A stretch of DNA of 64,000 nucleotides from Paracoccaceae bacterium (GTDB lineage Bacteria; Pseudomonadota; Alphaproteobacteria; Rhodobacterales; Rhodobacteraceae): assembly GCA_902606585.1 (NCBI GenBank), contig CACLGX010000004.1:48336-112335 (forward strand), given 5' to 3'. The position numbers were made by a program, and so were the translations under genes. Of the stretch, positions 624 to 56,888 are shown in pieces. Position 1 is the first letter of the stretch; each line of letters opens with the position of its first letter. A model generated the notes under the pieces. The model did not search any database, had not been told where the DNA came from, and was given only the letters and a program-made list of their open reading frames with translations.

Positions 624-1973
624 ATGGATGAAAAAATATGGACCAAGTTAAAAATTTCCCTAAAAAAATCAATCGGCGAAAACAACTTTAATAATTGGTT
701 ATCACCCATTAACTTCAGCTATGTTGATGAAGACATGGCTGTGTTCACTGTGCCAACAAATTTTTTAGGCAATTACGTATCACAAAATTGGGGCGATTTG
801 ATAATAGAGCAAATTTCATCCAAAAATAATAAAATTAGTCGCATAAAATTTGAAGTAGATACAAAATCGAACAACTTTGGAAATTCCCAACCTTCTGCGC
901 CTGCTCACATTAATGTTCAAAAAGATAATGAATTAGCTGGCGCACAGTTGGATAAGAGATTTACATTTGATGCTTTTGTTGTTGGCAAACCAAATGAATT
1001 GGCTCATGCAGCAGCTAGACGCGTTGCTGAAGCCGGTGATGTGAGTTTTAATCCACTTTTTCTTTATGGAGGCGTTGGCTTAGGAAAGACTCATTTAATG
1101 CATGCTATAGCTTGGGAGCTTAGTAACCGCCGGCCAGATATAAATGTACTGTATTTGTCCGCAGAACAATTCATGTATAGATTTGTTCAAGCTCTAAGAG
1201 AGCGAAAAATGATGGATTTCAAACAACTGTTTCGGTCCGTAGATATTTTAATGGTTGACGATGTTCAGTTTATTGCAGGTAAAGGAAGCACCCAAGAAGA
1301 GTTTTTTCATACTTTCAATGCATTGGTTGATCAAAGCAAACAAATAATCATCTCAGGCGATCGTGCGCCCGGTGAAATTAAAGATTTAGAAGACAGAATT
1401 AAAAGTAGACTACAGTCGGGTTTAGTTGTTGATTTGCACCCAACTGACTACGAGCTGCGCTTAGGCATTCTACAATCAAAAGTTGAACGTCAAAAACAGC
1501 AATACCCAGAGCTGAGTATAGATAATAACGTTTTAGAATTTCTTGCTCTCCGGATTTCAACAAATGTCCGGGTCTTAGAGGGTGCTCTAACGAGATTATT
1601 TGCATTTGCCTCACTTATTGGGCGGCATATTACCCTCGAGGTGGCACAGGATTGTCTTGCTGATGTACTTCGAGCATCTGAAAGAAAGATAACGGTTGAA
1701 GAGATTCAACGCAAAGTATCAGAGCATTATAATATCAGGCTATCGGATATGATAGGCCCTAAACGTCTTCGAACCTATGCTAGACCTAGACAAATAGCGA
1801 TGTTTCTAAGCAAGCAACTAACTAGTCGTAGCCTACCAGAAATTGGTCGTCGGTTTGGTGGCAGAGATCATACAACAGTAATGCATGGCGTAAGGCGAAT
1901 AGAAGAGCTAAGAGCACAAGATGGACAGATCGCTGAAGATTTAGAAATGCTTAGAAGAGCACTAGAAGCATAA
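624..1973 (+). CDS. dnaA: Chromosomal replication initiator DnaA
   Basis: Walker A GGVGLGKTHLMHA, DDVQFIAGK, C-terminal signature GRDHTTVMHGVRRI. Confidence 0.98.
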   Translation: MDEKIWTKLKISLKKSIGENNFNNWLSPINFSYVDEDMAVFTVPTNFLGNYVSQNWGDLIIEQISSKNNKISRIKFEVDTKSNNFGNSQPSAPAHINVQKDNELAGAQLDKRFTFDAFVVGKPNELAHAAARRVAEAGDVSFNPLFLYGGVGLGKTHLMHAIAWELSNRRPDINVLYLSAEQFMYRFVQALRERKMMDFKQLFRSVDILMVDDVQFIAGKGSTQEEFFHTFNALVDQSKQIIISGDRAPGEIKDLEDRIKSRLQSGLVVDLHPTDYELRLGILQSKVERQKQQYPELSIDNNVLEFLALRISTNVRVLEGALTRLFAFASLIGRHITLEVAQDCLADVLRASERKITVEEIQRKVSEHYNIRLSDMIGPKRLRTYARPRQIAMFLSKQLTSRSLPEIGRRFGGRDHTTVMHGVRRIEELRAQDGQIAEDLEMLRRALEA

Positions 1974-50778: not shown

Positions 50779-51382
50779 GCGAAAGCTCTCCTATTTTCAA
50801 AACCACTGACTTTGCATCAGTTATACTGGTAACTGCTTCCCAACTAAAGTTCCAGGTTTTCTCTGCAGCAAACAATTCTTCTTTCCAAGACTTTCCCTTT
50901 GAAAATAAAAGAGTGGTATCATCACTCAAATGGTTAAATGATAAATCAAGAAGACTAGGTAAATCAGCTAAAGCCCTAGCTGATATTACATCAGCCTGCT
51001 GTCTATCGCAGCCCTCTATCCTATTGTTTATAATAGATAAATTTAGATTCAATTCTCTTTTTACAGTGCTAAGAAAAACACATTTTCTTTTATCACTTTC
51101 AACCAAGATTATCTCACCACCAATATTTTTGTCCTGAGCAAGAATTGCCACGACCAGTCCTGGAAATCCTGCCCCAGATCCCATATCCAACCATTTTTTA
51201 AAACTTTTGTTGTTAGCATAAAAAATCTGGGCTGAGTCCAAAATATGACGATTCCATATTTCAGGTACAGTTTTTTCAGAGATTAGATTTATACTCTTAT
51301 TCCACTTTTCAACAAGCAACCCAAGCCGCTGTAAAAGTACTAATGTTTCACGTGAAACATCTATTAAAATATCATCTTTCAT
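50768..51382 (-). CDS. rsmG: 16S rRNA (guanine-N7)-methyltransferase RsmG (GidB)
   Basis: [31 protein letters not shown]; between parA and mnmG. Confidence 0.95.
51344..51359. promoter_or_regulatory. parS centromere site
   Basis: TGTTTCACGTGAAACA, exact 16-bp palindromic parS consensus, inside rsmG next to parAB. Confidence 0.95.
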
Positions 51383-53253
51383 CCGGCCTTAATCTGATTT
51401 TGACCCTGTTTAACTTTTGATAATATTAAAAAAAGAGCTGCCGGCGTCATTCCTTCTATACGGGAAGCTTGAGCTATATTTTTTGGTTTTTGGGTAAGTA
51501 ATTTATTTTTTAATTCGTTTGATAGGCCAGACATTGACTGATAATCAAAACTGGATGGTATTTTTATCGCTTCATCTCTTTTGATAGCTTCAATATCTTT
51601 CTTCTGCCTATCAATATAATTTGAGTACAGCGCATCTCTATGGACCTGCTGTTGAATCTCACTCTCTGTGAGTGACAACCTACTATCAAATACCGTTATG
51701 CTATCAAAAGTGACGTTTGGAAATGCCAATACTTGTTTCAGGTTTCTTTTATTCCCATCTTGGCTCACCGAAATACCCTGATCTATCAGTTGGTTTGGAG
51801 TAAACTCTTTTTCAGAAAGTATTGTATTGCATTCCTCTATTTTATTGATTTTTTCTAAGAATACCTCCTTTCGATTTGTCGATATACAGCCTATTTCTAT
51901 GCCTTTTGGGGTCAACCGTTGATCTGCATTGTCTGCACGAAGTGAAAGTCTAAATTCTGCTCTTGACGTAAACATTCTATAAGGTTCGCTTACACCTTTA
52001 GAAATTAAGTCATCTATCATAACGCCTATATAACTATCTGACCTCGAAAAAATAATTGCTTCTTCTTCACTTGACACTGCTGCTGCGTTTAATCCAGCAA
52101 CCAATCCCTGCGCCGCCGCCTCTTCATAGCCCGTAGTTCCATTGATTTGACCTGCGAGATAGAGACCACTAACACCATTAACGCTTAAAGTTAGTGATAA
52201 GGACCTAGGATCAACATAGTCATATTCTATCGCATAGCCTGGTTGTAAAATCTCAACCTTCTCTAATCCTTTTATTGAGCGCACGTATTCTTTTTGGGTT
52301 TTTTCCGGGAGTGATGTGGAAATTCCATTAGGATATATGGTGTCAACCGAAAGACCTTCCGGCTCTAAAAACACCTGATGCGATCTTTTATCTCTAAATC
52401 TGACTATTTTATCTTCTATAGAGGGACAGTATCGAGGACCCGCACCGTCTATATGACCTCCATACATTGCTGATTTTGATAGGTTTTTTTCTATAATCTC
52501 ATGCGTCTTCTCGTTAGTAAAAGTTATTCCACAGGAAATTTGCTCTGCTGTTGGGTTTTTTGATAAAAAGGAAAACATTGTAGGCTCAACATCACCGGGC
52601 TGCCTTTCTAGCTCTTCCCAATTTATAGATTTTCCATTTAATCTTGGGGGTGTTCCTGTTTTTAACCTCCCTAGTTTTAAACCAAAACCCTCAATCTTTT
52701 CCGCAAGTTTTAATGATGGATTTGCGTCCATACGGCCAGCCGAATATGAAAAATCTCCTATATAAACCTTTCCTCGAAGAAATGTTCCGGTGGTTATAAT
52801 GGTTGATTTTGCTAAAATTTCAGAGCCATCGGCTAAAATTACACCCCTTACCTCATCCTGAGACCCAACAAGATCAACAACTTCTCCCTCGACGATGGAG
52901 AGGTTTTCAATTGACTTTAAAGCTTTTTTTATTGAATTTTGATACAGTAATCGATCGGCCTGAACCCGCGGTCCCTGAACTGCAGGCCCTTTTTTGCGGT
53001 TAAGTAATCTAAACTGGATACCCGCCTCATCCGCTGAACGCGCCATAATACCGTCCAGCGCATCAATTTCACGCACCAAGTGACCCTTGCCAAGACCACC
53101 TATAGCAGGGTTACATGACATTATGCCGAGATCAGAAGATTTCAGCGTAACGAGAACTGTACTGGCACCCATTCTTGATGAAGCCGCAGCGGCCTCACTA
53201 CCTGCGTGTCCACCACCAACCACGATCACGTCAAATTGTTTCACATGAAACAC
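51379..53253 (-). CDS. mnmG: tRNA uridine-5-carboxymethylaminomethyl modification enzyme MnmG (GidA)
   Basis: [58 protein letters not shown]. Confidence 0.98.
53237..53252. promoter_or_regulatory. parS-like site overlapping the mnmG start codon
   Basis: TGTTTCACATGAAACA, one substitution from the parS consensus. Confidence 0.75.
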
Positions 53254-54560: not shown

Positions 54561-55832
54561 TTAGGTATTCATAGAATCGAAGAACTCAGAATTTGTCTTT
54601 GTTTGTTTTAATTTTGATAAAAGAAATTCTATCCCATCTGTCGTGCCCATTGGATTTAAAATACGTCTCAAAACAAATGTTTTCTGTAAATCGATCTTAT
54701 CTATAAGAAGATCTTCTTTTCTTGTACCGGACTTCAATATATCTATTGCAGGGAAAACCCTTTTATCAGCGACTTTTCTGTCTAACACGATTTCGCTGTT
54801 ACCTGTTCCTTTAAATTCTTCAAAAATAACTTCATCCATTCTACTTCCTGTATCTATCAACGCTGTAGATATGATGGTTAATGAGCCACCTTCTTCTATA
54901 TTTCGAGCCGCCCCAAAGAACCTTTTTGGTCTTTGAAGAGCGTTTGCATCAACTCCACCTGTTAAAACTTTACCTGATGATGGTATTACGGTGTTAAAAG
55001 CCCTACCCAGCCGGGTTATAGAATCTAAAAGAATAACAACATCACGCTTATGTTCAACAAGTCGCTTTGCTTTTTCTATCACCATTTCTGATACTGCTAC
55101 ATGCCTAGCTGCAGGTTCATCGAAAGTAGAAGATATTACTTCTCCCTTTACTGACCTCTGCATATCAGTAACTTCTTCTGGTCTCTCATCTATAAGAAGA
55201 ACTATAAGATAACACTCTGGGTGATTTTGCTCTATACTATGGGCTATATTTTGCAAGATAACTGTCTTACCGGTTCTTGGTGGTGCAACAATAAGTGACC
55301 GTTGACCCTTACCAATAGGTGCGACTAAATCTATAACTCTTGCTGATTTATCTTTAACCGTTGGATCTTCTATCTCCATAATAAGGCGCTCATCAGGATA
55401 TAGAGGTGTAAGATTGTCGAAAGCTATTTTATGTTTTGCTTTATCAGGATCTTGAAAATTTATTTGATGTGCTTCTATTAAAGCAAAATACCTTTCGTTG
55501 TCTTCTGGTGCTTTTATTAATCCCTCTATCGTATCACCTGTTCTCAATGAGTATTTTCTTATCATTTCTGGGGATACATAAATATCGTCTGGACCTGGTA
55601 AATAGTTGGCTTCCGGTGACCTTAAAAACCCAAATCCATCTTGTAAAACCTCAAGAACACCATCGCCTGCGATTTCCCAACCTTCATCCGCCCTCTCACG
55701 CAGAATCTGAAACATTATTTCACCTTTGCGCATAGTTGATGCATTTTCTATTTCTAGTTCTTCTGCCATAGAAAGAAGATCTTTAGGGCTCTTAACTTTT
55801 AAATCAGATAGGTTTAAGCGAGTAGAAGACAT
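54561..55832 (-). CDS. rho: Transcription termination factor Rho
   Basis: [62 protein letters not shown] open to 55919; start likely [12 protein letters not shown]. Confidence 0.97.
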
Positions 55833-56276
55833 ACCGGTACCTGCTAATAATAAATTATTGAAAAACAACACAGAACAGCGTTGTGAAATTTCGGTACACT
55901 GTGTATCAAATTGTGTCAACTTCTTTAGAAATTTATAATTATCAGCTTTTCTATTTAGCTAGAAGGAAAATCAAAACTTTCTGTTAAATATAAAAATAAT
56001 ATTTATATAAGATATAGAAGATATTGTAGGTATCGAGAAAAGTGTGGATAAAATTTAATCCACATTCTAATCAAATAAAATTTCACTGTAAGTAATTAAA
56101 AAATAGGAAAAAAAAATTTAATTAACAATTTGTGGGTTATTATTAAAGTTCATACTCACAAAGGATAAAATGTAATTTATTTTTTATAAAGAACAGAATA
56201 AATTAAAAACATAAGAAAAAAATATAATGTTAACAAATACAGTAAAACAAAACATTTTTTATCCACAAAACCATAC
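55833..56276. other. oriC: Probable chromosomal replication origin (oriC)
   Basis: Longest non-coding gap in the window. Perfect DnaA boxes at 56043-56051 (TGTGGATAA) and 56259-56267 (TTATCCACA), near-box TAATCCACA at 56056-56064, very AT-rich, flanked by divergent rho and maf, near parAB/parS. Confidence 0.85.
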
Positions 56277-56888
56277 ATGGATTTATTAATGAGCGGAGAA
56301 CTTATTCTAGCGTCTTCTTCTGAAGTGAGAAAAGAACTATTAGAAAAGTCGAATATATCTTTTTTTTCAGTCGAACCAAATATAGACGAGGATGCTGTAA
56401 AATCCACTTTATTGGTCGAAAATTATTCACCTCGCGACATAGCAGACGCATTGGCAGAACTGAAAGCTAGTAAGATTTCCTTAAAAACCCCAGATAGTTT
56501 GGTATTGGGATGCGACCAGATTTTAGAATTCGAAGGTATTTTATTGGAGAAGCCGCCATCTAAAAATTTAGCTGTGCAGCAATTAATTAAAATTTCAGGA
56601 AAAAAACACAGTGCTTATTCTGCAGCGGTTATATTCGAAAACTCTAAACCTATTTGGCGTTTCGTTGGTAAAGCGGATTTATTTTTAAAAAATAATAGTG
56701 AGGAATATATTTCTGACTATGTAAGTAGAAATTGGGATAGTATTAAGCACAGTGTGGGTGGTTATAAAATAGAAGAAGAAGGTTGCCGTTTGTTTTCAAA
56801 GATTAATGGTGATTATTTCTCTATTTTGGGTATGCCATTACTAGAAATTATAAACTTCCTATGTATCAGAGGTGTAATTGATGGATGA
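56277..56888 (+). CDS. maf: Maf family nucleotide pyrophosphatase
   Basis: LILASSSEVRKELLEKSNISF; VLGCDQILEFEG; SVGGYKIEEEGCRLF. Confidence 0.93.
   Translation: MDLLMSGELILASSSEVRKELLEKSNISFFSVEPNIDEDAVKSTLLVENYSPRDIADALAELKASKISLKTPDSLVLGCDQILEFEGILLEKPPSKNLAVQQLIKISGKKHSAYSAAVIFENSKPIWRFVGKADLFLKNNSEEYISDYVSRNWDSIKHSVGGYKIEEEGCRLFSKINGDYFSILGMPLLEIINFLCIRGVIDG

Follow-up and report, generated by a model that had tools for sequence, protein, structure and literature searches.

The DNA analyzed here is a 64,000-nucleotide window (C4:48336-112335) of a MAG (G000; 76 contigs totaling 1.81 Mb, with a completeness of 73%) that its named relatives assign to the Rhodobacteraceae, and the 112-kb contig that carries it has a GC content of 39%. 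In window coordinates, rho (54561 to 55832, minus strand, with Pfam Rho domains) and maf (56277 to 56888, plus strand, Pfam Maf) are divergently oriented and enclose an intergenic region at 55833 to 56276. A first-pass annotation of this DNA had put the length of the gap at about 440 bp if rho starts at 55832, and had described it as strongly AT rich; it is 444 bp long, with an AT content of 77.5% compared to 61.6% for the 64-kb window, and the most AT-rich 444-bp stretch in the 64 kb starts at 55845. It is not quite the only long gap, as had been stated, since the box-free stretch before dnaA (∼307 to 623) also exceeds 300 bp. The initiator gene dnaA itself (624 to 1973, plus strand) lies ∼54 to 55 kb from the rho-maf gap and has no DnaA boxes nearby. 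A perfect parS, TGTTTCACGTGAAACA, is found in rsmG (51344 to 51359, plus strand) adjoining parA/parB, and a second parS with one mismatch is found at the mnmG start (53237 to 53252, plus strand). Both sites are 3 to 5 kb from the gap, and parS and parA/parB all lie within less than 7 kb. Inside the gap, a TTGACA at 55914 to 55919 (minus strand), conserved as GTCAA in the congener alignment, is the likely −35 element of the rho promoter.

The gene neighborhood is that of a known origin locus. The Caulobacter crescentus origin, Cori, represents a conserved alphaproteobacterial arrangement, hemE-ori-COG1806/CC0001 (PMC1914354). Like this locus, the gap has rho on one side and maf-aroE-coaE-dnaQ-secB on the other, is AT rich, carries DnaA boxes, and is far from dnaA; the first-pass annotation had pointed out that in several alphaproteobacteria, such as Caulobacter, the origin is next to the maf-aroE-coaE-dnaQ-secB side and not at dnaA. 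Unlike the Cori locus, hemE does not flank the gap but sits on another contig (C1:141452), and the 73%-complete genome gave no match to the COG1806 gene (PF03618). A scan of the gap for CtrA and IHF sites found no TTAA-N7-TTAA, TTAACCAT, or WATCA-N5-WTR, a scan of full sites only, such that degenerate ones could remain, and GANTC had no match in the gap. Within the Rhodobacteraceae, Ori-Finder predictions are available for 101 closed genomes (PMC6699656). Those predictions concern the same family and use the same criteria, namely, the skew minimum, DnaA boxes, and nearness to parAB; the present analysis describes the box layout, the fixed spacer, and the loss of hemJ.

A cumulative GC-skew minimum at the gap, the check proposed in the first-pass annotation, was found on its own contig and in eight relatives. 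The minimum was at the gap or within ∼2 kb of it in all nine genomes examined: G000, six congeners (G001, G002, G004, G006, G014, and G015), and two members of other genera of the family (G060 and G018). Because G000 is fragmented, its skew was computed on its own contig rather than genome-wide, and the minimum fell at window position 55767, 66 bp inside rho. In the six congeners, it was inside the orthologous gap or at most 0.1 kb from it, and in G060, it was ∼0.9 kb from the maf start. G018 has a closed 3.56-Mb chromosome, and coarse whole-chromosome skew, computed from 20-kb samples around the circle, placed the minimum at 3.470 Mb, compared to 3.478 Mb for maf, and the maximum at 1.63 Mb, near the opposite point at 1.70 Mb; at 1-bp resolution, the minimum was ∼1 kb inside rho. 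These data bear on the possibility that replication starts in the gap upstream of dnaA (307 to 623), with the boxes between rho and maf forming a DnaA cluster of regulatory function. Origins next to dnaA are common outside the alphaproteobacteria, and a gap of more than 300 bp does precede the gene. However, no box with one mismatch or fewer lies 1.5 kb or less from the start of dnaA, and the skew in the 10 kb on either side goes from −0.029 to +0.019 at dnaA compared to −0.117 to +0.104 at the rho-maf gap. Moreover, the contig minima lie at rho-maf in the genomes used for skew, where dnaA is 54 to 81 kb distant. An origin at dnaA is thus highly improbable.

Because a divergent gene pair alone can make a local dip in skew, the skew at 4-fold degenerate sites was determined separately for each gene orientation. 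At these sites, a shift of approximately +0.14 to +0.24 across the gap is seen in genes of either orientation (G001, G015, G006, and G014). In G001, G015, and G006, the strand-corrected minimum coincided with the maf/rho(hemJ) junction; it was ∼0.7 kb away in G014 and 2 to 3 kb off in G018; in G000, where the contig extends only 8 kb to the right of the gap, it was weak and 2 to 3 kb off. One might argue that the dip reflects nothing other than divergent rho and maf transcription, with the conserved sites being the promoters and leaders of these genes, as the gene arrangement and the conserved TTGACA-like rho promoter at 55914 to 55919 would allow. This explanation is highly improbable in view of the shift that remains at 4-fold sites in both orientations, the global skew minimum at this place in a closed chromosome, and the retention, in congeners that lack hemJ, of a module (DnaA box, spacer, and CTAC; see below) that is positioned ∼100 bp farther upstream than the rho promoter and is distinct from it.

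The gap contains three DnaA boxes with one mismatch or fewer. Box 1 (56043 to 56051) reads TTATCCACA on the minus strand, i.e., TGTGGATAA on the plus strand, and anchors the proposed unwinding module; its family consensus is TAATCCACA, at positions from −236 to −350 relative to maf across the family. Box 2, TAATCCACA (56056 to 56064, plus strand), is inverted relative to box 1 and less conserved, and the two form a near-palindrome at 56043 to 56064. Box 3, TTATCCACA (56259 to 56267, plus strand), lies 10 bp before the maf ATG and is near invariant in the genus, and many family members have a box at about −11 from maf. The two exact boxes, the one-mismatch box, and the near-palindrome had all been picked out in the first-pass annotation, and their positions hold. 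Its two weaker candidates each have two mismatches: TGTGGGTTA at 56131 to 56139, which is TAACCCACA on the minus strand and corresponds to a family box located about −192 from maf, and TGTGTATCA at 55900 to 55908. A conserved CACAAAGGATAA in the congener alignment (56157 to 56168) may be a degenerate DnaA site.

The exact 9-mer is not enriched genome-wide (21 matches compared to 24 for the reversed control); therefore, it is the clustering that carries the signal. Two exact boxes did not arise in any of 5,000 dinucleotide shuffles of the gap itself, three boxes with one mismatch or fewer arose in about 2 of 5,000 (P = 0.0004), and the gap is the densest 500-bp DnaA-box cluster on the 112-kb contig. 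The boxes in the rho-maf gap are real and beyond chance. The sole other exact pair less than 500 bp apart in the genome (C9:20529/20848) was considered as another origin and rejected, since its boxes lie inside two coding genes.

Alignment of the gap among relatives showed that the boxes are conserved across the congeners and the family. Among six close congeners, 8 of 9 columns were identical at box 1, and the inter-box bases were conserved as well. Other conserved segments were the TGTGGG...CACAAAGGATAA block (30 of 40 columns), the box before maf (21 of 26), and an A-rich block, TAAGTAATTAAAAAATA...TTTAATTAACA, at 56089 to 56130 (34 of 42 columns identical), which is a second candidate for a duplex-opening or protein-binding region; the left spacer was conserved at 15 of 62 columns. 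The footprint was seen across eight congeners. In the family, the order of boxes from maf is minus at about −324, plus at about −298, minus at about −192, and plus at about −11, and the corresponding distances in the window are shorter, at −237, −224, −150, and −21. Most relatives carry hemJ between rho and the boxes. It is absent from the gap in six genomes, including the one studied here, and a search of the whole of the latter, which is 73% complete, turned up no hemJ (UPF0093). Retention of the module in genomes that have lost hemJ makes it part of the origin rather than of a hemJ leader, and the loss of this gene beside a retained module offers a comparison by which the sequence of the origin can be told apart from that of a gene leader. 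The sparse boxes had earlier been taken as perhaps a minimal origin; a better description is the usual layout of the family in a shorter form that lacks the flanking hemJ. In other words, the origin in the window is the ordinary oriC of its family, beside which hemJ was lost. Three congener assemblies end 34 to 236 bp upstream of maf (G008:C29:34, G010:C12:236, and G011:C61:146), and these breaks in or at the origin are possibly an effect of strain variation or of low-complexity DNA.

Read on the minus strand from box 1, the sequence consists of TTATCCACA, a 13-nt spacer (56030 to 56042), and a tract that starts with CTAC, CTACAATATCTTCTATATC, and continues as AT-rich DNA (55982 to 56029), G being absent over 48 nt. 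The spacer is constant in length but varies in sequence (in six congeners, 3 of 13 columns are conserved), a pattern to be expected of a distance that is measured by a protein. In other genera, the spacer was 13 nt at 21 of 29 sites and 14 nt at 7, and the tracts at these 29 sites, CTAC..AATCATCATCCTTTTCTTT, are also nearly G free. When a profile was trained on other genera, with none from the genus under study, the box-spacer-CTAC site ranked first in 8 of 8 contigs (seven of the genus plus G018; ∼1.2 Mb). A stricter pattern matched 17 of 199 family genomes, once in each, with 16 of the matches between rho and maf and none in the controls. A search of the whole class gave only one match outside the genome studied here, and the exact module is therefore a family feature. 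A signature that combines the box, the 13-nt spacer, CTAC, and the G-free tract and occurs at one site per genome can place origins in fragmented genomes.

This tract, to the left of box 1, is most likely the unwinding element. On the rho side, it includes the longest A/T-only run of the gap (27 nt, 55984 to 56010), and the 30-bp and 45-bp segments of lowest stability in the gap also lie left of box 1. The first-pass annotation had suggested the opposite side, where an A/T-only stretch at about 56170 to 56240 could be the element, but the longest A/T run there is only 18 nt and the region is weakly conserved. Unwinding that begins on the maf side of the same oriC, at 56089 to 56130 or 56170 to 56240, would fit the conservation of the A-rich block (34 of 42 columns) and the position of the second least stable 45-bp stretch (56164 to 56209). 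However, identical columns make up 50% (40 of 80) of 56171 to 56250 compared to 69% of the left tract, and it is the left tract to which the minimum of stability, the fixed spacer length, and the family-wide conservation belong. A start on the maf side therefore appears unlikely, and 55982 to 56029 is the better candidate.

The arrangement at 55982 to 56051 recalls the basal unwinding system (BUS) of Bacillus subtilis and many other origins, in which a DnaA box is followed by a spacer, most commonly of 13 nt, and by DnaA-trios (PMC8287927). Like a BUS, the window has a DnaA box, a spacer of 13 nt (∼10 to 13 bp is expected after the box), the CTAC start, and an AT-rich tract beyond. The tract is also trio-like in having 3′-GA-5′ dinucleotides in 3-nt phase, which account for 27 of 34 within the genus. 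However, three or more contiguous 3′-NAN-5′ trios within 16 bp of the box are absent from the window, where the longest run is 2 and below the shuffle mean, and most of the family likewise fails this strict rule, with runs shorter than in shuffles. Unlike in a BUS, other genera use ATCATCATC, which is out of trio phase. A true BUS was thus rejected, and the element is called BUS-like. We hold with moderate confidence, by analogy, that it works like a BUS. In B. subtilis DnaA, Asn187 reads the trio adenine (PMC10721633); compared to this protein, the DnaA encoded in the window keeps Glu183 and Glu228 but has Lys for Arg202 and Tyr for Asn187. Both replacements also occur in congener DnaA, and the Tyr is found in G060 too. 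A Rhodobacteraceae-specific unwinding code, made up of the box, a fixed 13 to 14 nt, CTAC plus ATC triplets, a G-free strand, and a DnaA with Tyr for Asn187, is a speculative idea that we think is probably wrong; if true, it would mean diverged single-strand recognition and not the canonical DnaA-trio. The locus offers a testable example of BUS-like opening with a diverged trio array and a diverged trio-reading residue.

The box cluster beyond chance, the skew minimum, and the AT-rich element beside a box are the sequence-level hallmarks of an oriC, and the rho-maf gap is very probably the oriC, in agreement with the first-pass proposal of an origin here, ∼55 kb from dnaA. The location and the box array are strongly supported by these comparisons, and they place the origin for an uncultured low-GC Rhodobacteraceae lineage. 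We are nearly certain that the gap is the single chromosomal origin. Filament growth and its direction, strand capture, the side of melting, and helicase loading are modeled on the BUS. DnaA-ATP would bind the strong boxes (56043, 56056, and 56259) first and the weaker intervening sites next. From box 1, which is in minus orientation, a DnaA filament would extend leftwards over the fixed 13-nt spacer onto the CTAC-initiated, G-free tract at 55982 to 56029, bind one strand of it, and melt the adjacent A/T run at 55984 to 56010, where DnaB would be loaded. The new origins would then be segregated by ParB bound to parS 3 to 5 kb away.

Two further sets of sites were noted. First, in three divergent congeners, G005, G003, and G013 (L172, L173, and L176, respectively), DnaA boxes are weak, or exact ones are absent, and near-canonical trios, CTATTACTAAAACTACTC, lie 13 nt after TAATCCAC[CTG]; in each, the spacing is exactly 13 nt and leads into three trios in a row. 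The pattern in these genomes resembles a trade-off between the strength of the box and the quality of the trios. Second, L059, L080, L188, L189, and similar alphaproteobacteria carry box-spacer-C(T/A)AC tracts of a looser form, with AGATTCTT after them. These look-alikes are placed in the rho-maf interval, ∼1.1 to 1.4 kb from maf, and could delimit the oriC unwinding sites of those alphaproteobacteria.
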